Below, one piece after another: positions 43,514 to 64,000 of a stretch of DNA of 64,000 bases. Each line of letters starts with the position of its first letter. Within the stretch, counting starts at the first letter, position 1. The position numbers and the translations under genes are program-made. This DNA comes from Amyelois transitella (lineage: Eukaryota > Arthropoda > Insecta > Lepidoptera > Pyralidae). Location: NCBI RefSeq assembly GCF_032362555.1, contig NC_083517.1, positions 9,320,001 through 9,384,000 on the forward strand. Direction: 5' to 3'. The notes beneath the pieces were generated by a model. The model ran no database searches. It was given only the letters and a program-made list of their open reading frames with translations, and had not been told where the DNA came from.

Positions 43514-46500
43514 ATGGAGAAAAGTGAACGGTTTTCAGAGTACCTATTCGCAAAGATGGGCCCCGGAGACGGAGGGCCGAAGACCACAGAAGATCGGTCA
43601 GCTCACAAGGAGCCGACTGGTCTGAAGAAATGGTTGGCGGAGAACACAATGCTGGTGGTGACTTTGGCCGGTGTTGTCACGGGAGTTGGCATTGGTAAGT
43701 TATTTTTTATCCTATTATTTTACTTTATTGGGCGATTGTCAATTTTATTATAAAGATATAGAAAGAGATGTACCTGTCTTTGTGGTACAATTGCTTCGCT
43801 CTGTGGTCTAATACCCAGCTGGGAATACGTATAAATGACAGAAAGATAAAAAGTGATGGGTTAACATTTTAACCCATCACTTTTTCGGGAAGCAAATATG
43901 CTCCGTAACTCTTATCTGACGTTGCCATCTTTGTGTAAACCTTCTAACTCCTGTTCTTTTATTTTATTGTTGTTTTTAGAAACAATAGGTATTTTGGTAA
44001 TGCAATAAGTAGAAGAGTTATGAGTTCAAAACTAAGACCTAGTTTTGATCACGCCCCTTTCCACTTGCTACGATTCTTGAATACGATTTCTCCACATTTA
44101 TCATCATCTTCATGTAATTATCTTTCATCAGGACTAAAAATGCAAATTGAAAAATAATAAAAAATGATAATAACAATCTTCATGTGATTTTCAATTACTG
44201 AATAAAGTATTCGTGTTCAAATTAATATGATTTTCAATGTGCGGACACTAGTTGTATGATATTACGAGTATGCAATAATTAATTAAGGATATCTACTCCA
44301 GTAAACTCATAAACTTATTTTACCATCTCAACAACATTTTGTAAGTCCCGTGTGGTTCCCGGCACCAATACAAAAAAGAATAGGACCACTCCATCTCTTT
44401 CTCATGGATGTCGTACAAAGGCGACTAAGGGATAGGCTTGCAAACTTGGGATTCTTTTTAAAGCGATGGGCTAGCAACTTATCACTATTTCAATCTCAAT
44501 TCTATCATTAAGCCAAATTGCTGAATGTGACCGTTCAGTTTTTTCGTGACTGTTGGCTCTGTCTACCCCGCAAGGGATATAGACGTGACCATATGTATGT
44601 ATGTACGCAACAACATGTTCAATTCTTCTCATATATAAAAATCATTATGAAACAATGATTTAAGAAGCGGCACTTCAGTACAAATAACTTCAGTGTCAGG
44701 GGTTAAATTATGTGTGACAACTTCAATAAAGGGAGTTTATTGAGCAATTTAAAATGTACAAAGCAATTAACTGTGAGAGCTTTGGTCATGCGATGTGATA
44801 AAACATCTTCATTTAGCCTTTAGTTATTAGGTACAAAGTTAGCAATATCGCTAAAGCTAGATGTAGCATAGAGATTACAACGGTAGCATAATAATGTGTA
44901 ATATTTTATATAATGTATATAAATTTTCGAACTTCACTCAATAATATTAATTAATGTTTTCAACAATTAGAGTATGTAGCGTTTACCTTAAATGGTTTGC
45001 ACATTTAACAACTAAATTAACATACTATACACATAAATATGTATTAGATTGTTGTAGTATTGTAGGCATGTATCAATGTAGCAAACAATGGTAGGCCAAA
45101 TAAATAAATAAAAAAAATATATATAATATTCAAACGATGACATTATGTGTAATTTTTCACAAGTTGTGATAAAATTGGTATGGTTGGTTTATAGAAATCA
45201 CGAAACTAAAAGACAAGTCTCGCATGGCATAATAATGGAAAGAGTGAAAGGGTGCTAGTCCATCGCCTAAAAGAAGGATCACAAGTTTATTACACCTTCC
45301 TTTGATTACAGATACATACAGTCACGTCTATATCCCTTACGGGCTAGACAGAGCCAACAGTCTCCAAGAGATTGATAGGCCAGCTTTTTAGGCTTAATGA
45401 TAGAATTGAATTGAATAGAATCATTTGATAAAATTGAACATAATTCTAAGAACCAATTAAATAAATAAATATGTATATACGGGACAAATTACACAGATCG
45501 AGTTAGCCTCGAAGTAAGTTCGAGACTTGTGTAACGAGATACTAACTCAACGATTCCATATTTTTTAATAAATACTCATTTAGATAAACATCCAAGACTC
45601 AGGCCAAACAAAAATAGTTCTTTTCTCATCATGCCCTCGCCAGGATTCGAACCCGGGACCTCCGGTGTTACAGACAAGCGTACTACCGCTGCGCCACAGA
45701 GGCAGTCAAGTGTTAATTATGCCTTCAGTTATTTCAGTAATTACTCACCCACACGGGAATACGTTTAGAAAATAAGTATTTGTAAGTGATGAATAACCTG
45801 TCGCTGTGTATTCGATGATCAATGATGTCAGAACCTTTCATAAACATGTCAACGGTAAACCACTAAACACCCCTATAATTTCTACCAATGAAAGTCATCG
45901 ATAAGATTTAAAATCAATAAGCCCTGACTGCCTCTACAAATAGAAACGGCCGAGTGATGGAAAATCAATAATTTCTGTGAACGAGAGAATGTTTGAAAGA
46001 CTTTTTGGTTTGTTCGATTACTTTTTAAACTTTGATTTCTTAATACCTTAATTATTTATTAGGGTTTAATAGACGTTTTAGTTTTTTTTTCTTGGGGTAT
46101 TAGAAATTGTTGTACATACATACACATACATAAAGTCACGTCTATATCCCTTGCAGGGTAGACTGAGAAAATAGTCTTGAAAAATTTTATAGGCCACGTT
46201 AATTTTTTGGCTTGATGATAGAACTGTGATTCAAAATAGATACTGTGATGACAGGTTGCTAGCCCATCGCCTAAAATAAGAATCCCAAGTTTGTGAGCCA
46301 ATCCATTAGTCGCATTTCACGACATCCATGGGAAAGAGATAGAGTGGTCCTATTCTTTTTTCTATTGGTGCCGGAACCACACGGCGTTAAAATTATTATA
46401 AATTTAAGGGAATATTTTCGAAAAAGGATTATAGAACTATTATTTATAGGATAGCTTAGAAGTTAATTAAATAACGTTCTCTGCCTCATTATTGTTATTC

Positions 46501-49500
46501 GATACACAAAAAAATTTGATGATAATAGGTACACCTATTCCGTTGAGCGAACAAATATTAATAATGATAGAAAAATATTGATTTGTATCCTATCTACATA
46601 GATCTGTTTCTGAATCACAATATATATTTTTTTTATTATATATCACTACATAGTATAAAACAAAGTCGCTATTTTAGTCTGTTCGTCTGTATGCTTAAAT
46701 CTTTAAAATTACGCAACGGATTTTGATGCGGTTTTTTGTAACAGGTAGAGTGATTCAAGAGGAAGGTTTTTATGTATAATAACTTTTATAATTTTGCACC
46801 CGTGCGAAGCCGGGGCGAGTCGCTAGTTTATAATAAAACAAATATTTTTAAAACCTCGCTTTTAGCTTCCTAGGGTTAAAGTGTGACCTTCCTAGTCTGA
46901 ATACTAGTTTCAGTCGATAAGTAATCACTGAAATGAACACAGTAATAGAGGTACTACCTGGTACCTATAGGTCTTAAGCTATTTTTAGTTCGGATTGACG
47001 CATAGCAAGTTCAAGGTCGTCGAAGATTGATGGAGGTTTTGCACGAAAAATACATTTACTTGACAAACATCATAATGACGGTGAGATATCTAACGATAAT
47101 GGAATTGACCACAAAGCGCTGACGTGGACAAGCGCCACCTTCAATTTAACAAGCTTCTTGTAATGACCGCTATCTGTAATACCACTCGGACTCATAATAC
47201 ATACATGATCACGACTATATTCCTTACGGGATAGACAGAGCCAACGGTCTTAAAAAGACTGAAAGGCCACGTTTGGCGTATGGTGTAGAAATGGAATTGA
47301 GATTCAAATAGTGACGGCCCATACCCTACAAGTATAGAATCCCAAGTTTATTAGCCTTTCCCTTAGTCGCCTTTAATGATATTTATGGGTGTGGAGTGGT
47401 GCTATTCTAGAGTCCCAAGAAACGCACAGCCCTATAAATTTGCATTTAATTTTTTTTATAATAAATGAATAAAGTATGTAACCTAAATAAAATAATACTT
47501 GGTTCTCAGTACAGTTTGTTACAAAACAAAAAACTGTTAACGCTGATTACTTACATCATGACGACACTATGCAAAATTGCACAATTTGTAAACTACAGAA
47601 AATCACGACAATGCCTTATGTAATGAAAAAAAGATATCTAGTTTACCGTCGTAAACAAAAAAAAAATATGCAAAAATAAACAAAAGTGAGGTAGTATGTA
47701 TAGGAGTACCCATGACAGATACACTAAATGTCACAGTCTTCAATAAAATATAGACATTCCGTTCGATCCTCATAGCTATGGTTGCCTTTCTCTAAACATT
47801 AATAATCTCGCTGGATGTATGATTATCATTAAGCGATACAATACAATACAATACAATACAAGTTATCTATATTGTCCATAACAAAATTAATAAGAACATA
47901 GTAGAAAAATAAAAAATAAAATTAATAAAATAAATATTTTTTTTTAACTAACACTGTTGTCTATTTGATTCAATTTTGAAACTACTATCGTAGATGATCT
48001 ATCTTGTTTTTAATGATGACATTGATGTAACAGTTATTTACGGTAACAAAAAATCAACAAAATGATAAAGATGGTTAGATAAAATGTTTACAAATTTACT
48101 TTAGCGTAAATACCTAGCTTATTTTGGTAAAAAAAATTTGTAAACAAACAAGTTTGAAATATTCTTAGGGGGGATTTTCTGAGAAAAGTTTATATCTTTA
48201 TGCATAATCGAGGCGGGTCATATGCAATTTCTACATAACAAAATTTAATGAAATATACCTAGTAACAAAATCACGTTCATGAGACATTTCTTTTTCTCGG
48301 ATCAAAATATTGCTAACATACATAGATCTCTTTCAGATCTTTCAGATCAAGGAAAAAGTAACAATGGAACTTAAACTAAAGAGAAATTTAGTACAAGCAC
48401 TACTTATTTGTAGAGAAATTTCTTCCAGCGGCCTGGTATGAATATTATGAAAAATGTAATGTCACTATTTGCGTCAAATAATGATAGTTCTTTCTTTCTT
48501 ACAATAAGAATAACATTATGAATTTAGCGTCGTTGGATTTATTTTCAAAAAGTCTCGCTTAAGCTATGTAGTGTTAATACAATATAAATAATATATACGG
48601 TACAAATTACACATATTGAGTTAGCCTCGAAGTAAGTTCGAGACTTGTGTTACGAGAGACTAACTCAACGATTCTATATTTATATAATAAATACTTATAA
48701 AGATAAACATCCAAGAGCCAGGTCAATCAGAAAACGTTCCTTTCTCATCATGCCCTGGCCGGGATTCGAACCCGGGACCTCCGGTGTCACAGACAAGCGT
48801 ACTACCGCTGCGCCACAGAGGCCGTCAAAGTACAATATGTAATGTATGTTAATTTATTGTTACAGGCTTCGGCCTCCGCCCCTACAACCTGGGACCAGAC
48901 GCTCATATGATCATCTCCTACCCTGGCGAACTCTTCATGAGGCTTCTTAAACTCATGATCCTTCCTCTCATCATCGCTAGCCTGATAGCTGGATCTGCGA
49001 GTTTGAACGCCAAGATGAGTGGAAAGATTGCAGTCAGGACACTTCTATACTTCATTCTGACGTCTATGTTCAATGCGTTCCTTGGGTTGCTGCTAGCTAC
49101 GATGGTGCACCCTGGTCAGCCGGAGTTGAGAGACGATGTCCGGGGTGTCGTCGAGACTAAACGGGACCATAGCATTTTGGACAGTATTCTGGATATTGGA
49201 AGGTAATTTTTTTTTTAATATTTTCTGCGCTATTTTTTGTATTTTTTTGTCGATGCCACCAAAATAATTGTTATTTTTTTATACTCGGGTAACATTGTTC
49301 CTATATCAATTATGTCAAATGCATAATATAAACTTGCATACAAACATATAGTCACGTCTATAACTCTTGCGGGGAAGACAGAGTCAGCAGTCTCGAATAG
49401 ACTAAAAGGCCACGTTCAGCTGTATGGCTTCATGATGGAATTGAGATACAAATAGTGACAGGTTGCTACCCCGTCGTCTACAAGAGGAATTCCAAGTTAA

Positions 49501-52482
49501 CAAGCCTCTTCTTTAGTCGCATTTTACGACATCGACGGGAAAGATATATTGTGGTCCTATTCTAAAATAATTACCAATTTATGATTAAAAATTTGCTAAA
49601 GAAATTTAGTAGTAACTATACTACTTTTTGACACACCTTTTTTTTGTTACGATGCCTTATACTGAACTACTATAGAATTAATAAAGGAAGGAGTTGACTC
49701 TTTATATAACGTGGCCACTTCAGCGCTGAATGCCCGGGTCGTGACCTCATGACCCCACTTTTATCTAGAGTACGAGAATTAATCAACATTTATTAAAATA
49801 TGATTTATTTTGAATTACATACATTTCCTAGGAATTGTATACAATAACGGATTACATACATTTCTGTTAACATAAATATATAATTTTTAAGTAATTTCTA
49901 GTTAAAAAAATGTTAAGGTTCAACCCTTATCACTAAGGGGTATGAAAAATAGACGTTGGCCGATTTTCAGACTTATATATATATATATATATATATGTAT
50001 ATACATATATATATAAGTCTGAAAATCGGCCAACGTCTATATATATATGTATATATATATATATATATATGTTTTATTTCACAGAAACATATTCCCCGAC
50101 AACATAGTGCAGGCCGCGTTCCAGCAGGCTCACACAGTATACACTGAGCCACCTACGCTGTTCGCCAGGAACTTCACTGATAATGATTCATTGCCACATT
50201 TGGTCAGAGTTGTGTCTTACAGGTCAGTCATATGTAGATTAAGAAATTGTCAGCCTTGTGCAGAATTTAGAATCCGATTAAAAAAAAAACAGTTGTACCA
50301 TCTCTTCGTTTTGTATATTTTTTTGATGTCTTGATTATTTTAGTGGATATTGTTATGTGGTCTTTTTTCTAAGTCGTTTTAGTCTGAATCTGTTCTCTTG
50401 TAAAAATATACATTCTTCTTTCTCTTGGCGTAAATTACTTGCCATTTTTATATGCGTTAATTACTTGCCATTTTTATATGTCATTGTTATTATATCAATT
50501 TGACGTGTATGTATGTTTGTCCGCGATTATCTCGCGTTTCGCTGAACAGATTTTAATGCGGTTTTCAGGATCAGTGTTTGTTACTTTTAGGAGAAGGTTT
50601 AAGAAATTTAACCGAGTTTAAAAAGTATGATATCGTTTGGACGTGGTTCTCCTTTTACAAAAGTTATTTAAGATTTTAAAATTTTTGAACATGAGTATTA
50701 TTTGGAGATGTTATACAAATCTTTATATAACTTTCAGGTCAGGCACCAACACTCTGGGATTAGTATTCTTCTGTCTGGTATTCGGGAGTCTATTGGGAAC
50801 ACTTGGAGCAAAAGGTCAGGTGGTGATAGACTTCTTCCAAGCGATATTTGAGGTGATCATGAAGATGGTGACCGGAGTCATGTGGTTTACACCTGTTGGA
50901 GTCAGCAGCGTCATCGCTGGGAAGATATTGGGTGTCAGTAATGTTGGTGAGTTTACCGACAAGTATTTGTTTATAATACTTGGTTATTGAACTTGGTTGT
51001 GCCGTGTGGTTCCCGGCACCAATAAAAAGAAGAATAGGACCACTCCATCTCTTTCCCATGGATGTCGTAAAAGGCGACTAAGGGATAGGCTAACAAAATT
51101 GGGATTCTTTTTTAAGCGACAGGCTAGCAACCTGTCACTATTTGAATCTCAATTCCATCATTAAACCAAATAGCTGAACGTGGCCTCGTTCAGTCTTTTC
51201 AAGACTGTTGGCTCTGTCTACCCCGTAAGGGATATAGATGTGATGATATGTATGTATGAACTTGGTTATTGAAAGCTTTTTTTGAATGTCGATGTTCGAA
51301 TCGGTAAGGTGCCTGGTCAAAATGCGGTTGCGCATAAAGGCACCGGTTCGAATCCCTTCGCGGCCTTGTACCAATGACTATTTTCGAAGTTTTACGTACT
51401 TTAGTTTGATAACTAACCGATGCTCTTACGCCGTGGGAAAACATCGTGAGGAAAACTGCACGTTCAGGCAACTGGATGTGTAAACATAGGTATGATCTAA
51501 TACGGGTTAGGTTCCCCTGCAAAGGTTGCGGAGGTCAGACGGGAGTCGCTTCGTGTAAAAATCTGAATCACCCAATCCAGGGTACATAGTCAAAGGCTTA
51601 CCCCGGGCTCCTCTCCAGAGTGGTTAGGATGCAATCGGAACTACAGTCAGGAAGATTGATAGCTGCTTTTGCTCATGATACATCATACATATGTACATAC
51701 ATATATCCCTTTTGCCGTGCCGTGTGGCTCCCGGCACCAATACAAAAAAGAATAGGACCACTCCATCTCTTTCCCATGGATGTCGTAAAAGGCGACTAAG
51801 GGATAGGCTTACAAACTTGGGATTCTTTTTTAGGCGATGGGCTGGCAACTAGTTGAATCTCAATTCTATCGTTAAATCAAATAGCTGAACGTGGCCATTC
51901 AGTCTTTTCAAGACTGTTGGCTCTGTCTACCCCGCAAGGGATATAGACGTGACCATATGTATTATATCCCTTGTCAAATTTCTTTTAATTTACTTCATAT
52001 TTACTAATTCCTTCCTCACCATAATTGCAGCGCAGGTGATGTCTCAGCTGGCCTGGTTCATCGCCACAGTAGCTGTTGGTGTCTTCTTCTACCAGCTGGT
52101 CGTGATGCAGCTCATCTACTTCGCCTTCTTGAAGAAGAACCCGTACAAGTTCTACTGGGGACTGTCGCAGCCTATGCTGACTGCTTCGGCTACCGCTTCT
52201 ACGTGAGTTTCTTTGGTTATTTACTTTTAAAATTTCAGATATGACTTTTTAATGAAATGATAAATAAATAAATGAATATATGCAGGACAAATTACACAGA
52301 TTGAGTTAGCCTCTAAGTAAGTTCAAGACTTGTGTTACGAGATACTAACTCAACGATACTATATCTATACTTATAATAAATCTGTAGAGAGGTCAATTCT
52401 GTACATTGAATATATTTTCAAAATAACTATCAGGGGGTGATTAGTGATCGATACTGATGCCAAAAATGCAATCAGTAAAATT

Positions 52483-52515
<33 letters not shown>

Positions 52516-55500
52516 ATGTTCTTTATAGAAACAAAAACTACTTGACGGATTTTAACGAAACTTGGTACAGTTATTCTTCATACTCCTGAGCAGGTCATTG
52601 TATACTTTTCATTACGCTACAATCAGTAGGAGCAGAGCAGTGAAAGTAAATGTAGGGAAAACGGGAGAAGTTACTTGATTTTTTAAGCTTCCGTCGCGTG
52701 TGCGGGCTGCACACGAATGGTTAAAGATACAGCGAAACCATGTATAACGGAAATATTCTACATAAAATTATTAAAAAAATATCCCAAGACAGCATAAGTC
52801 TATCTGTTATGGTTGACTCACAATAACACGTGTAATTCCTAATAGCTTAGCAGTTCGGAGATTTCTGATTATATTTCTATACTCTGACGTTTATAATACC
52901 AATAACACTTACACTCATTCGTAATTTTTAAAAATTCATATAATTACCTATTCAATAAAAAAAGAAACATCGAATTCGGTATAGAAACACCAATCTTATA
53001 CATGTAATGAAATACGCTAACAAGCCATCGCGCGTAAATACTGAATCTTGCTATAAGGATTATTTTTGCGTAACGGTTGCCGCGCTCGACGCGTCTCGCA
53101 GCGGCAAGGTATAAAAGGGGCGGAAGGCGAGTGCAAGCTTCATGACCAAGGCAGCCAGGGGAAGACTTCACGCAGTTCTCTCCTCCAGCCTCCCCCTGAG
53201 GACGAAGCTCGGGATCTACCAAACGTACGTCAGATCCCGCCTCACGTACGCGGCCCCGGCGTGGTACGCATACTGCTCTGAGACCAACAGGAGAAGACTC
53301 AGAGCCCAAGAGAACCAAAGTCTCAGAGCAGTCGTTAGAAACAACCCTGCGCTACGTGAGGAACTCGACGATCCTCAGGGACCTGAAGTAGGAGAACCTA
53401 GATATTCGAGAGGCCGGACGCGTCATCACACAGCCACCTGCGCGGCATTTCGCCGCTCCACGCCCGCCCTCCGGGCCGTCGGGTGAAACTCTCCCCTCGC
53501 TGCCTTGCGGCAGACGTCGTCGACCAGTGACAACGCCGCCGCCGATGGGAACTCCCAGTGTATGAAGACGTGAAGACCCAGGCCGTCACGGCCGCCCCAT
53601 CGACCTGCCTACAGTCGTAGGCAGCAATGATGCCATTGAAGAGGGCCAAAAGCCCTGACCAATCTACTCCGACTCCCCTAAGGGAGTGTGGGAAGACCCG
53701 ACGACGGCAAGATAGTATTGCACAGGCGTTTCTTTATTTTCATTTCTTTTAAATTTTTTTGTAAGTTGTAGGTACATATTTCTGGTTATAATTCTATTAG
53801 AATATGTTTTTTTTGTTTAAATAGGCACTTAGATTTATCTATACTAATATTATAAAACTGAAGAGTTTGTTTGTTTTTTTTAATGTGCTAATCTAAAGGA
53901 CTACTGGTTCGATTTGAAAGATTATTTTTGTATTGAATAGACCATTTATCGAGGAAGGCTTTAGGCTATATAACGTCTAGATGCAACTATTAACCTATTA
54001 GGAGCGAAGAAATAATGGAAAATGTGAAAAAAATCGGGGAAGGAGCATCCTTGAGGGCTTTAATGATGCCCAAAATAACTATTCCACGCGGACGAAGTCG
54101 CAGGCACAGCTAGTTTTATAATAAATACTTACTTAATAATAAACATCCAAGACCCAGGGAAAGTTCGTTTCTCATCATTGATTCGAACTCGGGACCTCCA
54201 ATGAAGAAATGAAGAAGTTAAAAATAGACTGAACGAATTAGATAACACATAACGTTGTTAAAGATAACATCATGTTCCAAGATTCATTAACAATAACAAA
54301 TCAAAATTGAAAATAAACTTTTAGACATTAAGTATTTATAAATACTACAGGTATTAAACGCGGAGGTTTCTAACCATGTTACAATGATCCGTCGTCACCG
54401 AGTAGTATTTATAAATAGTATAACGCAACCCAAAAGTTAAAAATTAAATTCCTTTTCATCCTCAGAGCTGCAGCTCTCCCAGTAACATTCCGCTGCATGG
54501 AAGGCCCTCTGCGCGTGGACCCGCGCATCACTCGCTTCGTGCTTCCCATCGGCTGCAACATCAACATGGACGGGACTGCTCTCTTTCTTGCCGTCGCTAG
54601 TGTCTTCATCTGTCAGATGAACAATATCCATCTTGGATTTGCCCAGTTGGCCACCATTTTGTAAGTACAAGCCACCATTTTGTAAATACATCATTGTCGT
54701 TATGCTTTTACATTGTAGGTTTAAATTTGCTGTGTCCAATGTCCGCAGTGGGTAGCGTCCTGATGTGCAAAATTAACAATATTTATCTGAGCTGGGCATA
54801 ATTGGCCACAATTTTGTAAGATATTGTCATCTTCTAACAGAGTAGAAAATAGCATTTATAAGACCCGTGCATCACTCGCTTCGTGCTCCCCATCGGCTGC
54901 AACATCAACATGGACGGGACTGCTCTCTTTCTTGCCGTCGCTAGTGTCTTCATCTGTCAGATGAACAATATCCATCTTGGATTTGCCCAGTTGGCCACCA
55001 TTTTGTAAGTACAAGCCACCATTTTGTAAGCACATCATTGTCTGCATGCTTTTTCATTTTAGGTTTTAATTCGCTGTGTCCAATGTCCGCAGTGGGTAGC
55101 GTCCTGATGTGCAAAATTAACAACATTGATCCGGGCTGGGCATAATTGGCTACAGTTAGTACCATTTTGTAAGATATTGTCATCTTCTAGCAGAGTAGAA
55201 AATAGCATTTATATGACCCGCTCATCACTCGCTTCATGCTTCTCATCGGCTGTAACATCAACATGGATGGGACTGCTCTCTTTTTTGCCGTCGCTAGTGT
55301 CTTCATCTGTCAGATGAACAATATTCTCCTTGGATTTGCCCAGCTAGCCACCATTTTGTAAGTAATCAATTGCCGTCGCTAGCGTCTTTATCTCCCAGAT
55401 GAACAGTATGCATATTGGTTTTGTGCAATCAATCATTATTTGGTAACAATTGTCATATCAAGAATGATAAAGGAGACTGAGTTTTCTTCTAAGGTTTTTA

Positions 55501-57137
55501 TAGACTAGGTACTATTGGAACGTTATAATTCAAAATTTCCTAAAAACCATGCAATTTTTTGTCTCTATCAGTTCAGTTCAGATTTTATAAATCAAGTTTA
55601 AATTCCTTCTAGCCTAACATCAACAGCGGCGTCAGTGTCATCAGCGTCAGTGCCGTCAGCCGCCATGGTGTTGCTGCTGGTCGTGCTGACAGCAGTCGAT
55701 GCTCCTACACACGACGTGTCTTTGCTATTCGCTGTCGATTGGCTTGTGTATGTTACATCATTATTTATTATATTATCTTCAGAAGTGTCCATTAGGTATT
55801 TTAAGCATTTAAAAACAACATTATAATCAGTATGTATGTTTTATTTTATTTACTAATTCAAAGAACTAAGGAAATATTTTCTTTAATTGAGCTCCAATTC
55901 AAGTTTGTATATGGGTTAGATTCCCCAGTAAAAACTTCGTGTAAAATAAAAATCTGACCTAGCAAATCGCAGTCTCGGGCTGCTCTCGAGAGAGGTGAAG
56001 ACACAAACGATAATAATAATAGGAATAGTCGTTGTGTTTTTAAACATCTAAAATCGGAAATCTTAGAATAACAAGTCACCTAAGACTTATAATATTTTAA
56101 TTATCAGTACCCGGTTGGTCTACCAGAGATGGCGCTGATATAGTTTCTTAAAACGCGGTTTTTAAAATGTTTATATATCTTGGGAACCGAGCTTTTCTCG
56201 AACCTAGGATCTTGATAAATCGATTCCTTGAGCCGAAAAGCCCCTAATTTGTAACTTTCATGAAAATCGTTGAAGCCGTTTCCGAGATCCTGATTATATA
56301 TATACAAGAATTGCTCGTTTAAATATATTAGATTTGAGATAGCTCCTTGATTTTCGCCCACATAGAGACCGGATACGGACCACGAACAACATGCTGGGAG
56401 ATTGTTACGCGGCGGCTGTCGTCGAGCATCTCTCCAAGAACGAGCTCATGGCATGCGATGCTGTTTCTGTAAGTTTTTTTTTGATAATTAATCAAAGATT
56501 ATATTATATTATTATAGGTACATACATATAGTCATAGTGTCGTTTGGTTCCCGGAACCAGTACAATAAAAGAATAGGACCACTCCATCTCTTTCCCATGA
56601 AGGCGACTAAGGGATTGGCTTGCAAACTTGGGATTATTTTATTATTTTTAAGGGTATATCCGTGGCTATATGTACATACATACATACATATATTCACGTC
56701 TATATCCCCTGCGGAGTAGACAGAGCCAAGAGTCTCGAAAAGACTGATAGGCCACGTTCAGCTGTGCTGGATTTATGTTAGATTCAAATAGGGACAGGTC
56801 GCGAGCTCATCGCCAAAAAAGAAATAATCCCAATGCCATCATAAATCAAAAGATATTTTCTAAAAATTTTTACAAAGTTTTTCTAACTACCATATAAGAT
56901 TAGAATTTGCTTAACTTGATAGGCAAAAGTTGATAGTTCAGAAAATATACACTATGATTCTGTTCAAAAGAGAGCAAATAATTTCAGGATCCAATGCAAG
57001 CGTGCCTCGCACCGACCCCCAACACTGAAGTGGACATAGGCATCGTTACACCAAAGAGGTCAATTTGCGATGACGTTATCATCGACATGCATTTACACAG
57101 TAATGACAAACACTGCAATAACGTCAAGCGAATTTAG
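43514..57137 (+). CDS. Eaat: Excitatory amino-acid transporter (SLC1 family)
   Basis: A sodium-coupled carrier for acidic amino acids in the plasma membrane, typically of glia and neurons. Nine exons join in phase: 43514-43694, 48866-49202, 50085-50222, 50738-50946, 52031-52202, 54466-54660, 55613-55747, 56366-56468 and 56988-57137, giving 539 aa. The start chosen is [10 protein letters not shown]; the frame is open further upstream but without an ATG. It shows the SLC1 signature [17 protein letters not shown] (residue 80 on) and an extracellular loop with an N-glycosylation site (RNFTDND). NMDGT is at 378-382. [17 protein letters not shown] carries the substrate-binding D..R..T region at about 457-468. 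Hairpin 1 (ASATASTAALP) and hairpin 2 ([16 protein letters not shown]) diverge from the usual Ser-rich and Gly-rich forms, so an EAAT2-like or altered specificity is possible. Five partial copies of exon 6 follow it. Confidence 0.93.
43848..43885. repeat. Perfect hairpin
   Basis: 17-bp arms (43848-43864, AAAAAGTGATGGGTTAA, against 43869-43885) with a 4-base loop, in transporter intron 1. Confidence 0.85.
44346..44612 (+). mobile_element. Family A copy, transporter intron 1
   Basis: Full length with a clean TATG tail. Confidence 0.8.
45250..45405 (-). mobile_element. Rearranged family A fragments
   Basis: A middle block (about 45250-45310) precedes a tail block (45314-45405) in an order not seen in intact copies, so two fragments are joined. 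Confidence 0.5.
45472..45706 (-). mobile_element. Family B SINE, complete
   Basis: Head in reverse at 45640-45705 (GGATTCGAACCCGGGACC, CTACCGCTGCGCCACAGAGG). The box B is intact. Confidence 0.8.
46115..46386 (-). mobile_element. Family A copy, transporter intron 1
   Basis: Full length, with a small insertion near 46238. Confidence 0.75.
46641..46830 (+). mobile_element. Helitron-like copy, third subfamily
   Basis: TATCACTACATAGTATAAAA ... GTGCGAAGCCGGGGCGAGTC followed by GCTAGT. The end hairpin and CTAG terminus are present. Confidence 0.6.
47198..47430 (-). mobile_element. Diverged family A copy
   Basis: Transporter intron 1; the tail and head ends are both eroded. Confidence 0.6.
47840..47861. 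repeat. ATACA microsatellite
   Basis: Four to five units of the pentamer ATACA. Confidence 0.8.
48590..48826 (-). mobile_element. Family B SINE, complete
   Basis: The head in reverse (GGGATTCGAACCCGGGACC) ends at GGCCGTC, only 40 bp before the transporter exon 2 acceptor. Confidence 0.8.
49337..49570 (-). mobile_element. Family A copy, transporter intron 2
   Basis: Diverged; the head is missing after TGGTCCTATTC. Confidence 0.65.
49949..50040. repeat. Long perfect inverted repeat around a TA core
   Basis: 32-nt arms (49949-49980 against 50009-50040; the arm begins ATAGACGTTGGCCGATTTTC) enclose a TA-rich loop of about 28 nt. A second TA run follows to about 50070. The palindrome ends 44 nt before the transporter exon 3. 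Confidence 0.85.
51000..51260 (+). mobile_element. Family A copy, transporter intron 4
   Basis: Full length. Confidence 0.8.
51285..51660 (+). mobile_element. Family C SINE, complete
   Basis: Head GTTCGAATCGGTAAGGTGCC and box B CACCGGTTCGAATCCC, body with AACATCGTGAGGAAAACTG, end CTCCTCTCCAGAGTGG. Confidence 0.75.
51715..51963 (+). mobile_element. Family A copy, transporter intron 4
   Basis: Nearly full length; the tail stops at GTGACCATATGTATT, 68 bp before exon 5. Confidence 0.8.
52262..52385 (-). mobile_element. Family B SINE, 3' half
   Basis: Only the GACAAATTACACAGATTGAG to CAACGATACTATATC part. Confidence 0.6.
52434..52735 (+). mobile_element. Helitron-like fragment with GTCT microsatellite
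   Basis: Contains about eight GTCT units (52483-52515), ACTTGACGGATTTTAACG and a GCTTCCGTCGCGTGTGCGGG end. Related to family E by general layout only. Confidence 0.4.
53070..53740 (+). pseudogene. Non-LTR retrotransposon fragment (RT C-terminus)
   Basis: The frame at 53142-53486 encodes [39 protein letters not shown], then [17 protein letters not shown]. This is the conserved region after the palm of Jockey/CR1-type reverse transcriptases (typical pattern: Y-x-x-x-R-x-x-x-x-Y-A-x-x-x-W). Homology goes on in a different frame ([19 protein letters not shown]) after a frameshift near 53375, so it is dead. GC content is far above the surroundings, consistent with a recent insertion. It lies within transporter intron 5 in sense orientation. 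Confidence 0.7.
53838..54113 (+). mobile_element. Family E Helitron-like copy with intact ends
   Basis: Starts TCTATACTAATATTATAAAA and ends GGCACAGCTAG. The flanking bases are A (53837) and T (54114), the expected Helitron insertion context. The GACGAAGTCG hairpin precedes the end. Transporter intron 5. Confidence 0.8.
54115..54202 (-). mobile_element. Family B SINE fragment
   Basis: Internal part with AAACATCCAAGACCCAGG and GATTCGAACTCGGGACC, next to the Helitron end. The Helitron probably inserted into it. Confidence 0.55.
54333..54417. mobile_element. MITE-like element, second copy
   Basis: TATTTATAAATACT and its complement at the ends; the left part (ACTACAGGTATTAAACGCG) matches the element at 9631-9752. 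It lies 48 bp before transporter exon 6. Confidence 0.6.
54745..54815 (+). pseudogene. Decayed copy of transporter exon 6 (copy B)
   Basis: Translates [18 protein letters not shown], stop, LATIL, aligning codon by codon to [24 protein letters not shown] of exon 6. It still ends with an ATTTTGTAAG donor. An in-frame TAA replaces the CAG codon. Many differences fall at third codon positions. Confidence 0.75.
54862..55004 (+). pseudogene. Recent partial copy of transporter exon 6 (copy C)
   Basis: From the GACCCG block to the GTAAGT donor it differs from exon 6 at about two bases. The frame is open and NMDGT is kept. The first 52 bases of the exon and its acceptor are missing. The nearest acceptor-like site (TTCTAACAG, about 54830-54838) would put it out of frame. 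Confidence 0.8.
55089..55168 (+). pseudogene. Decayed copy of transporter exon 6 (copy D)
   Basis: Counterpart of copy B in the second repeat unit, with the same in-frame TAA and a small insertion (TACAGTTAGT) before ACCATTTTGTAAG. Confidence 0.7.
55215..55357 (+). pseudogene. Partial copy of transporter exon 6 (copy E)
   Basis: Open in the exon 6 frame with NMDGT and a GTAAGT donor, but several amino-acid changes (FMLLIG, LFFAVA, NNILLG). Same 5' truncation point as copy C, about 353 bp further on. Confidence 0.75.
55372..55442 (+). pseudogene. Old partial copy of transporter exon 6 (copy F)
   Basis: Translates [17 protein letters not shown], then VQSIIIW, and lacks a stop until the donor-like GGTAAC. 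It starts 15 bp after copy E. Confidence 0.65.
55885..56015. repeat. Family C remnant
   Basis: GGGTTAGATTCCCCAGTAAA and CGGGCTGCTCTCGAGAGAGG resemble the end of family C. Diverged. Confidence 0.4.
56535..56645 (+). mobile_element. Family A head half
   Basis: From GTCGTTTGGTTCCCGGAACC to CTTGGGATTATTTTATT; the rest is missing. Confidence 0.65.
56672..56832 (-). mobile_element. Family A copy, head missing
   Basis: Tail CATACATACATACATATATT through CATCGCCAAAAAAGAAA. Facing the preceding half copy in transporter intron 8. Confidence 0.65.
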
Positions 57138-60359: not shown

Positions 60360-63300
60360 TCATATTCGCATAGTGGCGTGTGGTGGCTTCCGACTCGCTG
60401 GCGCAGGTGGTAACCCTGGGCCTACCAGCGGCGACATTGAAGGTGATCTTGTCGCCAATGGCGATAACGATGGTGAAAACGAGGGCGACATAGCTGCCGC
60501 AGCCGAAAAACCACCAGGAACATCATGACTAATTGGAGACCTAGGTAATAAGTGTTGCGGCTGTCTACAAGACAGCGATGGAGCTGGACAACTCCTAGGT
60601 GCAACTGTTGTCAACAATGGCGGAGGAACACTTTTACCACCTGACATTGAAGTCCCTTTACTTTTTGCACTAGAAGCTCCACTGTTGCCGCTTTGTAAAG
60701 ACACAGCATCATCTTTCAGTCTTGCTATTTCAGAGAATACATGAGCAAGGGGTTGATATTGTGGCCCCCAGTCTAATAAATAGTCCCAATTATAGCTACC
60801 AGTCAATTCTTCTTCTGAATGTACAATAGAACTAAGACTTCCAGTCATGGACGGTCCGGCTGTCGGAACGGCAGTGCCGTCTCCTGGCGCACTTGGAAAC
60901 GCTCCCAAGGCCATAGCTCTATCGACAGCGGCACTTGTATCATCGGCACTACTTGCTCTTTCGCTTCCAGTTACTTCATTTAACTTTGCGTAAATTAGAT
61001 TAGTAATATCATTCTCATGACCAGCATCTTCATCAAACATATGCATCGAGTCTATAGGACCATGATGAAGCATTGTGTCTTTATTTCCAACGTTTTCTGA
61101 ACACCTTCTAGATGAGGTTGATGCGCCTCCACCAGTTCCCGTGTCAACTATGCCAAGTCTAGCTAAATATTCTTGAGTATTATGTACTGAGACATCTGAT
61201 AAATTATCATCGTCTACGCCATTATTTTGTCTATGCATGCCAGATTCTCTGAGAGGGCCTTCATTTATCATTCTTATTTCCTCATCTTCCCCATCTTCTC
61301 CATCCTCTGCTGAGCCTCGACCACTGGACCCAGATTGATCTGAACCTGATAGTTCTGAAGTAGTAGCAGCTCCAGAATTGGAACTTGCTGTATGTGGTCC
61401 GTATGGAGGAATCTCATCGTATTTTGGAGGAGCAAACTGATTCCCAGGCCCTGTGTTCCTTATTGGAATGGTATCAAAGGCACTTGGATCCACATAACTG
61501 TTAGTAGCACCAACTCCTTCGGAATTTAAACCTGGTTTATTAACTTTCTTGTGTCGTTTATTTTTCATATGTAAGAACAAGAATGCTGCTGCAAATATAA
61601 TTATGATGAATATAAAAGCAATCAGCAAGCCTAGTGCCCAGTCTGAAAGACCTCCATTTGAAGCTGCTGCTTCATTGACTTGGTTTATATCTGATATTAC
61701 TGCTAAAGGATCAAGTAATATTTCAACTGCAGTTTTGTTAGTAAGTGAGCCCGGTCTTCCAGAAGTAGCAGTAACAACAAGACTTATTGATTTATCTGCA
61801 CCAAAAAGATTGGCTACCGATTCTACTTTCTTTTTTAGAAATATTACTCCTGTTGTTCGATTGATTTTGAAGAATGAGTGTGAAGTTGACAACTGGTATA
61901 CTATTCTTCCATCAATACCCTTGTCTCTGTCGGTAGCTGTTGCTTGTCCAATTACATATCCTGCTCGTAAGGGACCTGATTTTGGGATACCAAAATTGTA
62001 AGTCTTTTGTGTAAATTGAGGATAAAACTCATCTCGGCTTTCTATGTCTATTCTGACCTTTACAGTAGAACTTCTACCACCCATATCAGAAGCTTTGATG
62101 GAAAACTCGTATTTATTTTTCTGTTCGTAATCGAATACGACATTTGTGTTAACCAGTCCTGATATTGGGTCAATTTGAAACATTTTCCATGAATCATCAT
62201 GTCGATTGTAATTTGTAGATGCTGAGACGATAGAATAATTAAGTTTCCCATATCGCCCTTTATCTAAATCAGTAGCTCTTGCTATAAAGACTGAGGTTCC
62301 GACTCTTTCATTCTCTCCTATGGTTTCAAAATATTCGTTGACTGGGAAAGTAGGTGAATTATCATTTTCATCAATAATATCAACTTTTACATTTGCTATA
62401 TTACATAATGATGGAGCTCCTTGATCGCAACCTACGATTATGAGTTTATACACCGTGTTACCAATATCATAATCAAGTGTCTTGTTAACTGTTAGTAACC
62501 CACTTATAGGATGTACATAAAATAGTCTTTCGTCATCTCCAGAAGTGATATTATAAACAATAGCCGAGTTAGGTGTTCCATACAAATCAGCGTCTGTAGC
62601 AGATAGTTGAACCAGTGAATGTCCAATACTAACATCTTCGCTGACAGTTAATTCTAAGTCGTTGGTTAAGAATACAGGAGCATTGTCATTTGAATCGGCG
62701 ACAGTGACAAACACGGTGATAGATGTTTTGTTTTGGTTGTGTGAAATTACTTTTCCTTGTTCTACAGCTGCTAAGCCAAGAATGTACGAATCTTGAGTTT
62801 CTCTATCAAGTTTGTTAATTAAAATGAGCGCTCCATCAGCGTTGACGTCAAAACTGTCCGCTTCGTTGCCACTAATGATGTGGAAATCCAGGTTGTACTT
62901 CTTGAGGACATCGTTAATGCCACCAATTTGAAGGAGTGACGAGCCCTTTTCAGTATCTTCATTTACTGTTATCCTGAAAATGATAATAATTATTTGGTAA
63001 ATATGTGAAATAAATAAAAAAATAAGCTAATTAGATGTTAAGCGCAGAAAAAGTGAAAAGAAAACAAATATAAGTGGATACACTAAATTTAAAAAAGTTT
63101 CATTTAGAACAAATGCTTAAGTGAGATTCTATTACTGTTTTAATTAAAATAATTATGTCAAATATAGTGTCAAAAAACGCAGAAAAAGGGGTAAGATAAG
63201 ACAACTTTTTTTTGGGATATGATTTTTCAAAAACTACATCATAACATTTTACCAACCTGTAAGTATCCTGTCCGATGAAAGGTTTTATTTCTGAAGTAGC

Positions 63301-63548
63301 TCCAGTGCTGATCCTTAAAGACGTAACGGCACTTCTGTTAGGTTTCCCGTGGTCAGTAGCGATTATGGCCAGTTGAACATTCCTCTGGTTTTCAGGTAAT
63401 GCACTGTAGTTTACGAAAATAGATCCGGACGCCGCGTCGATGGAGTAACTCTTCGTTGGATGGAGAAAGGAATAGGATATTCTGCCATTGTCACCGCTGT
63501 CGATGTCGCTTGCGTGAACGGAGCCGATTTCCAATAAGCCGGTGCCTT
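60360..63548 (-). CDS. ds: Dachsous cadherin, C-terminal exons (partial)
   Basis: Dachsous is a giant atypical cadherin that binds Fat and directs planar cell polarity and Hippo signalling at the cell surface. Two last exons are in the window: 63548-63257 and 62973-60360, joined in phase (AG|G); the 5' part lies beyond the right edge. The visible roughly 967 residues contain the last cadherin repeats with Ca-binding motifs (ADSNDNAPVF, DENDNSPTF, DIDSGDNG, DADLYGTPNS). A membrane helix (WALGLLIAFIFIIIIFAAAF, about 61643-61570) and a long cytoplasmic tail follow. The tail has PPKYDEIPPYGP, an acidic run, and the Dachsous signature NWDYLLDWGPQYQPLAHVF then SEIARLKDD (about 60800-60710). The Pro/Ser-rich end finishes MRI-stop. 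Confidence 0.92.
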
Positions 63549-64000
63549 CTGAAATGTTAGATGTTTTCATGAGGATAGTTTGCTAAAACTCTTTGTGGTG
63601 TAAGTAGGTCAGGTAAGGTTATATCCCAGATTGAGATTGATTGATTTCTTTAGAGCGGTAAATATATGGAGTGACTCCTTGCTTGACCACGGTTATGGTT
63701 GTTTATTTTCATGTCTTCTCATCTATACTAATATTATAAAGCTGAAGAGTTTGTTTGTTTGAACGGGCTAATCTCAGGAACGACTGGTTCAAATCGAAAA
63801 ATTATTTTTGTGTTGAATAGACCATTTATCGAGGAAGGCTTTAGGCTATATAATATCACGCTGCAACTATTAGCAGCGAAGAAATAATGGAAAATGTGAA
63901 AAAAAAAACGGAAAAGTTATTCAATGATGCCCAAAATAACTATTTCACGCGGACGAAGTCGTGGGCACAGCTATTCACGATAAAGAGATTAGTTCAATTC
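63549..64000. other. Dachsous intron (partial)
   Basis: Intron sequence upstream of the penultimate visible exon. It holds a Helitron-like copy at 63722-63973 and no further exon before the window ends. Confidence 0.6.
63722..63973 (+). mobile_element. Family E Helitron-like copy
   Basis: Starts TCTATACTAATATTATAAAG and ends GGGCACAGCTAT; the last base of the terminal CTAG is changed. The 5' flank is A. Confidence 0.75.

Follow-up and report, generated by a model that had tools for sequence, protein, structure and literature searches.

The intron that follows exon 6 of an SLC1/EAAT-like transporter gene holds five partial copies of that exon (B to F; exon 6 itself is copy A). All are homologues of one exon, in one gene and in one orientation, and together they extend over approximately 1 kb. 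The array is very probably a truncated tandem exon duplication whose copies would be non-functional debris, leaving exon 6 as the only version used in the mRNA. The duplications appear to have begun inside the exon, so that the copies came without its acceptor and its first 17 codons, and the splicing machinery is expected to pass them over. The array can be seen as an example of how a series of duplicated exons begins and then comes to nothing: what is left is donors and coding sequence, with no acceptor. Its main interest at present is for annotation, as prediction programs may call spurious exons at this site.

The features are collected in Table 1, with positions counted from the first base of the window, that is, of the whole 64-kb stretch analysed (C13:9320001-9384000), which comes from a genome of 327 Mb in 33 contigs that looks lepidopteran in its repeats and its size.

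Table 1. The transporter gene, the exon 6 array and related features, in window coordinates
Feature	Position	Strand	Remarks
Transporter coding exons 1-5	43514-43694, 48866-49202, 50085-50222, 50738-50946, 52031-52202	+	
Transporter coding exons 6-9	54466-54660, 55613-55747, 56366-56468, 56988-57137	+	
Exon 6 (copy A)	54466-54660 (195 nt)	+	Functional; carries NMDGT; acceptor with pyrimidine tract; phase-matched, open
Copy B	54743-54819	+	Old; covers only the last ~75 nt of exon 6; interrupted by a TAA in frame; 53/77 to A
Copy C	54862-55004	+	Exon 6 nt 53-195; differs from A by R>C and by a silent change; immediately preceded by an in-frame TAA
Copy D	55087-55172	+	Counterpart of B in the second unit; 9-nt insertion; in-frame TAA
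Copy E	55215-55357	+	Exon 6 nt 53-195; R>L, V>M, P>L, L>F, H>L and silent changes
Copy F	55370-55446	+	Older remnant of the 3' ~75 nt; 59/77 to A; open, 5'-truncated; its donor, at 55443, is in register
21-bp tandem duplication of the donor region (second GTAAATAC)	54650-54690 (unit 1), 54994-55034 (unit 2)	+	
Candidate 60-nt in-frame mini-exons	C 54945-55004; E 55298-55357; F 55383-55442	+	Internal TAG as acceptor

The transporter gene and its sixth exon

The parent gene is intact. Its nine coding exons, joined across GT/AG junctions, give a 539-aa open frame (43514-57137, + strand) in a gene model whose start ATG and exon ends were picked by eye; two further choices at the exon 4/5 junction are likewise open, at 536 aa each. 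Exons 5-9 match the Pfam SDF domain (4e-56) and the EAAT1-3 structures in the PDB. The gene also contains NMDGT, which we take to be the motif of the SLC1/EAAT family, so that domain and motif together place it there. Coding sequence makes up 12% of the gene span. Exon 5 breaks off after the second base of a codon, and the length of any substitute exon must therefore be divisible by three. The original prediction had placed exon 6 correctly: its acceptor (ttcatcctcag/AGCTGC), its donor (CATTTT/GTAAGT) and a frame that is open and in phase with the exon 5 donor at 52202 all agree on its position.

Some other features of the neighbourhood can be recorded here. A perfect 16-nt inverted repeat (54333-54348 and 54402-54417, 53 nt apart) lies about 50 nt upstream of exon 6. 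An open frame on the + strand (2464-2991) matches the GINS subunit PSF1 (PF05916, PF24997), and the - strand beyond the downstream end of the transporter has two long open frames (60363-63026 and 63103-63582) that encode cadherin domains (PF00028).

Units, junctions and the close match between A and C

The similarity of C, E and F to exon 6 is far beyond chance: a search of the 64-kb window with exon 6 finds C at 98.6% identity (6e-69), E at 92.3% (2e-56) and F at 85% over 54 nt (55370-55423; 2e-12). B is matched at 69% over 71 nt (54745-54815) with a blast E of only 0.01; its alignment score with A was reached by none of 1000 dinucleotide shuffles. Tandem Repeats Finder describes the array as 2.4 copies of a 344-nt period with 92% matches, and a repeat search resolves a long block in three copies, at spacings of 344 and 353, and a 3' block in five copies. 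D is not among the copies returned by the repeat search; it was seen as a further copy in alignment (71 of 77 positions identical to B). The serial partial duplication of the NMDGT exon that the original prediction had proposed, with its five extra copies and its spacings of about 344 and 353 bp, is borne out by the repeat search and the alignments to exon 6. It had, however, listed the five as separate copies: they do exist, but B with D, and C with E, are parts of one repeated unit rather than equal and independent elements.

The unit is defined by its junctions. Unit 1 (54518-54861) consists of the 3' part of A, the intron sequence that follows it, and B. C and E begin at the same exon base (GACCCG, nt 53), and both have the same left neighbour, cagagtagaaaatagcatttata (except for the last base before the junction), which is the end of unit 1; unit 1 was thus copied head to tail, as C+D. 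Of a third unit, the part after the E donor is missing, and F starts 12 nt past the end of E. F agrees with A at 59 of 77 positions and with B at only 46 of 77, and for that reason it is set apart as an older remnant in its own right. Three other assignments were considered and not adopted: 1) F is not claimed as the third-unit partner of B and D (it resembles A more than B, and no significant likeness links its 3' flank to that of B, P 0.52); 2) the idea that B and D descend from a complete second exon that had an acceptor of its own was rejected (the sequence upstream of B and of D has no significant similarity to the 5' part of exon 6, with P 0.55 and 0.24, respectively); and 3) an origin of B or F from another SLC1 gene is not supported (the genome, searched with proteins and with Pfam, gave SLC1 matches at two loci, on C13 and C18, a count that is a lower bound). 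A near-perfect 17-nt palindrome, TTCATCTGTCAGATGAA, stands inside exon 6, C and E (54605-54621, 54949-54965 and 55302-55318) and may favour local rearrangement.

This arrangement would follow from a series of small tandem duplications in the intron, each of which took the 3' three quarters of exon 6, or no more than its final ~75 nt, along with adjoining downstream intron sequence. The order of events that we infer is the following: 1) old partial copies would have given rise to the B-type and F remnants; 2) the segment from GACCCG (54518) to just past the B remnant (54861) would then have been duplicated in tandem, producing C+D, while E would have arisen from the same junction as C, later losing its second half and becoming fused to F; 3) exon 6 and C would have been made nearly identical over a tract of ~140 nt, by gene conversion or by later copying. 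Judged from the exon part of the unit, the duplication is local and not that of a dispersed repeat. Exon 6 DNA has at least five matches in the genome, four in the array and one in an exon of the C18 paralogue, and the matches listed for this query (B and D are not among them) fall nowhere else. Local amplification, which the original prediction had offered as one alternative, is supported by these matches and by the tandem unit structure.

Two things are unusual about the array: how many copies it has, and how closely A and C agree. A and C differ at 2 of 143 exon positions, against 16 of 201 in the rest of the unit (Fisher p=0.006), and their longest identical run is 141 nt (permutation p=0.0013), although both P values are optimistic because sites are not independent and 9 of the 16 differences fall in one 57-nt stretch, some of them side by side. 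Is C real? Identity over 141 consecutive bases is what one would expect if copy C, at least, were an artefact of assembly, as had been suggested for it in part. But the unit flanks differ at those same 16 of 201 non-exon bases and by a 9-nt insertion, E adds yet another copy that has diverged, and, if the assembly was built from long reads, the ~1 kb of the array is far below their length. An artefact is exceedingly unlikely. Low divergence in the exon would also follow from constraint on C, and to that extent it counts against the reading of C as a dead copy. Coding constraint would end at the exon edge, whereas conversion, or a more recent copy, would not: the identical run continues for 25 nt past the exon end into the intron, so that conversion or recent copying fits better than selection, and gene conversion is favoured as the source of the near identity, short of proof.

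Splice sites, substitutions and a stretch of intron 5

If C or E, or both, were working alternatives to exon 6, spliced in a mutually exclusive manner, which acceptor would they use? The point was approached by listing every AG from the preceding copy's donor to each copy's own donor, with the exon 5 donor at 52202 as the only upstream partner. None of the AG sites listed makes C or E into an open in-frame exon containing NMDGT. The in-frame sites ahead of C (54843, 54846) and of E (55196, 55199) run through stops. For C, TAG and TAA stand in frame within four codons upstream, with a TAA (54859-54861) directly before the copy; for E, an in-frame TAG lies four codons before the copy. With stops so close upstream, longer exons fail too. 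B and D are stopped at every in-frame site listed. The acceptor of exon 6 and its first 52 nt (the 17 codons) are absent from every extra copy, and a search for those 52 nt elsewhere on the + strand of the 64-kb window finds nothing beyond 10-13-nt matches. It had been anticipated that the extra copies would lack the first part of the exon and a good in-frame acceptor, and the AG lists and the missing 52 nt confirm it. The accompanying claim, that C and E are open and keep NMDGT, stands for the motif but must be qualified for the frame: C is open only from its first codon, and there are stops upstream of both.

In favour of mutually exclusive use, then, are the in-frame similarity of C and E to exon 6, their NMDGT, their donors (both retain the hexamer GTAAGT) and the low divergence between A and C. 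Exons of this kind have, each of them, their own acceptor and donor and are interchangeable and of similar length; here donors are kept, the exon 6 acceptor and first 52 nt are gone, the lengths are 195 nt against at most 143 nt, and no open in-frame exon with NMDGT can be drawn for C or E.

The proline lost in E (P>L) is shared by 9 of 10 aligned SLC1 sequences (exon 6 among them, the copies not counted), and the arginine changed in both C (R>C) and E (R>L) is kept in all three animal and none of the seven bacterial sequences (the seven relatives from bacterial genomes serve only as a source of SLC1 outgroup residues). The changes carried by C and E include radical ones, at positions that the animal SLC1 sequences in the comparison otherwise conserve; in F, 8 of 23 residues are changed relative to A. 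A neutral simulation of amino-acid changes in C, E, F and B, with few sites to go on, puts C at the neutral expectation (probability of as few changes 0.45-0.51). Deficits are seen in E (5 changes against 7.5-7.8 expected, P 0.05-0.09), in F (8 against 10.3-10.9, P 0.06-0.12) and, despite its stop, in B (9 against 12.8-13.3, P 0.006-0.02). Purifying selection on B was considered on the strength of the last figure and rejected: B has an in-frame stop, and an excess of silent changes is expected from a constrained A branch. Since B is dead, constraint on A must be the main source of this mild deficit, and the similar weak signals in E and F therefore mean little. Nor is the lack of a stop in F unexpected (probability 0.67-0.70). 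The substitutions in C, E and F would thus need no constraint on the copies themselves.

One observation, and only one, leans weakly towards regulated exon choice. Among inverted pairs in 52203-55612 (the best 25 of 45 were looked at), a stretch of intron 5 (53702-53715) shows complementarity, at 13 of its 14 bases, to a spot shared by A and C, suggestive of a docking site, and a second (53538-53551) is complementary, also at 13 of 14 bases, to A alone. Such matches are rare in shuffled sequence: none of 60 whole-intron shuffles reached the two observed matches and one had any, while shuffles of the G+C-rich block 53060-53720 gave two or more in 2 of 300 and any in 6 of 300; ten other coding stretches of the window show no antisense match of this kind. 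(A technical note: this test was chosen after the fact, with its word length set after the list of pairs had been seen.) Only A and C take part in the pairing, at a place within the exon where the two do not differ in any case; E, F, B and D have no such 14-nt pairing with intron 5. This result makes the dead-copy reading slightly less certain, but no conclusion is built on it. Even so, it is extremely improbable that C or E serves as a mutually exclusive alternative, and the suggestion that theirs is the layout of such exons does not survive the 17 missing codons, the want of an in-frame acceptor that keeps NMDGT, and the changes at otherwise conserved residues.

Could the copies be spliced in some lesser way? 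Of the AG sites listed, the only ones that are open and in frame for C and E are internal TAGs (54945 and 55298), which would yield 60-nt exons without NMDGT, and F offers two open in-frame solutions, of 60 nt (55383) and 36 nt (55407), that also exclude the motif. The copies might accordingly act as rare cryptic or "poison" exons, either as a 60-nt mini-exon that uses the internal TAG as acceptor, or by frame-shifting inclusion that lowers transporter output. A length of 60 preserves the frame, and the mini-exon is open in A, C, E and F; at the internal site of C (ctctctttcttgccgtcgctag/TG) pyrimidines make up a fraction of 0.81, with a good donor downstream (the site of F reaches 0.56). But the matching TAG stands in exon 6 itself (54601), so that the site in the copies is inherited from exon codons, and a 20-aa insert would, in our judgement, probably duplicate part of a transmembrane segment. 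Cryptic use of this sort is improbable. A more ambitious version, which we regard as a longer shot still, would make the array a live exon nursery, in which conversion keeps A and C alike and a 60-nt mini-exon from C, E or F alters the transporter in one tissue or another, with the complementary stretch of intron 5 as a possible guide. If the copies were spliced after all, the result would be a glutamate transporter with an alternative core segment, which would be surprising. The reading of the array as debris fits the suspicion in the original prediction that most copies are dead: most or all of them look so, with no acceptor, the first 17 codons absent, and in-frame stops in B and D.

Genomic background and related systems

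How much explanation does such an array call for? In a survey of 20 further 10-kb regions, 8 contained local same-strand duplications of at least 50 nt that were unmatched elsewhere in the sample, several of them minisatellite-like arrays. The survey was crude: its regions were taken at round-number positions, uniqueness was judged against a small sample only, and exon overlap lay outside its scope. With local duplications common and 12% of the gene span coding, that one of them should strike an exon is unremarkable. Within the window, no copies of the transporter's other eight exons, of the PSF1 frame or of the cadherin frames were found at E 0.001.

Tandem exon duplication with unannotated intronic homologues is already known. 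Ivanov and Pervouchine (2022; PMC9013439) surveyed tandem exon duplications in human, fly and worm genes and reported 4,027 unannotated intronic targets in human. Like those cases, the array copies are exon homologues in the same gene and on the same strand; unlike them, they are 5'-truncated and have no acceptor. Ion transporters account for 6 of the 12 gene families with mutually exclusive tandem exons in human, fly and worm, where working tandem exons tend to keep the most important residues and most changes are conservative (PMC9741552). The array has homologous exons in tandem in common with mutually exclusive tandem duplicated exons (PMC9741552, PMC6071210), but its copies, unlike the exons of PMC9741552, have lost 17 codons, the acceptor and conserved residues. 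Drosophila Gr39a has a history of exon gain, pseudogenisation and loss (PMC2204066): there too exons are duplicated within one gene and some copies are pseudogenised, although Gr39a keeps several large alternative exons and the array has only one copy that is apparently usable. In the titles and abstract openings of a literature that included glutamate transporters together with exon duplication and mutually exclusive exons, this exon array was not found. Twelve stretches of viral contigs matched a search pattern; none is a relative.

The C18 paralogue, the second SLC1 locus (L011), carries a comparable trace: a 53-nt fragment of an exon lies in the next intron (L011:2066-2118 against 2409-2461), degraded, at 81% identity (2e-9). 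Finally, two Rfam tRNA matches on the - strand of the window (45632-45703 and 48751-48822) lie inside similar repeated stretches, the like of which recur in part at 52266-52353 and at L011:950-1050; these repeats look like tRNA-derived SINEs and not tRNA genes.
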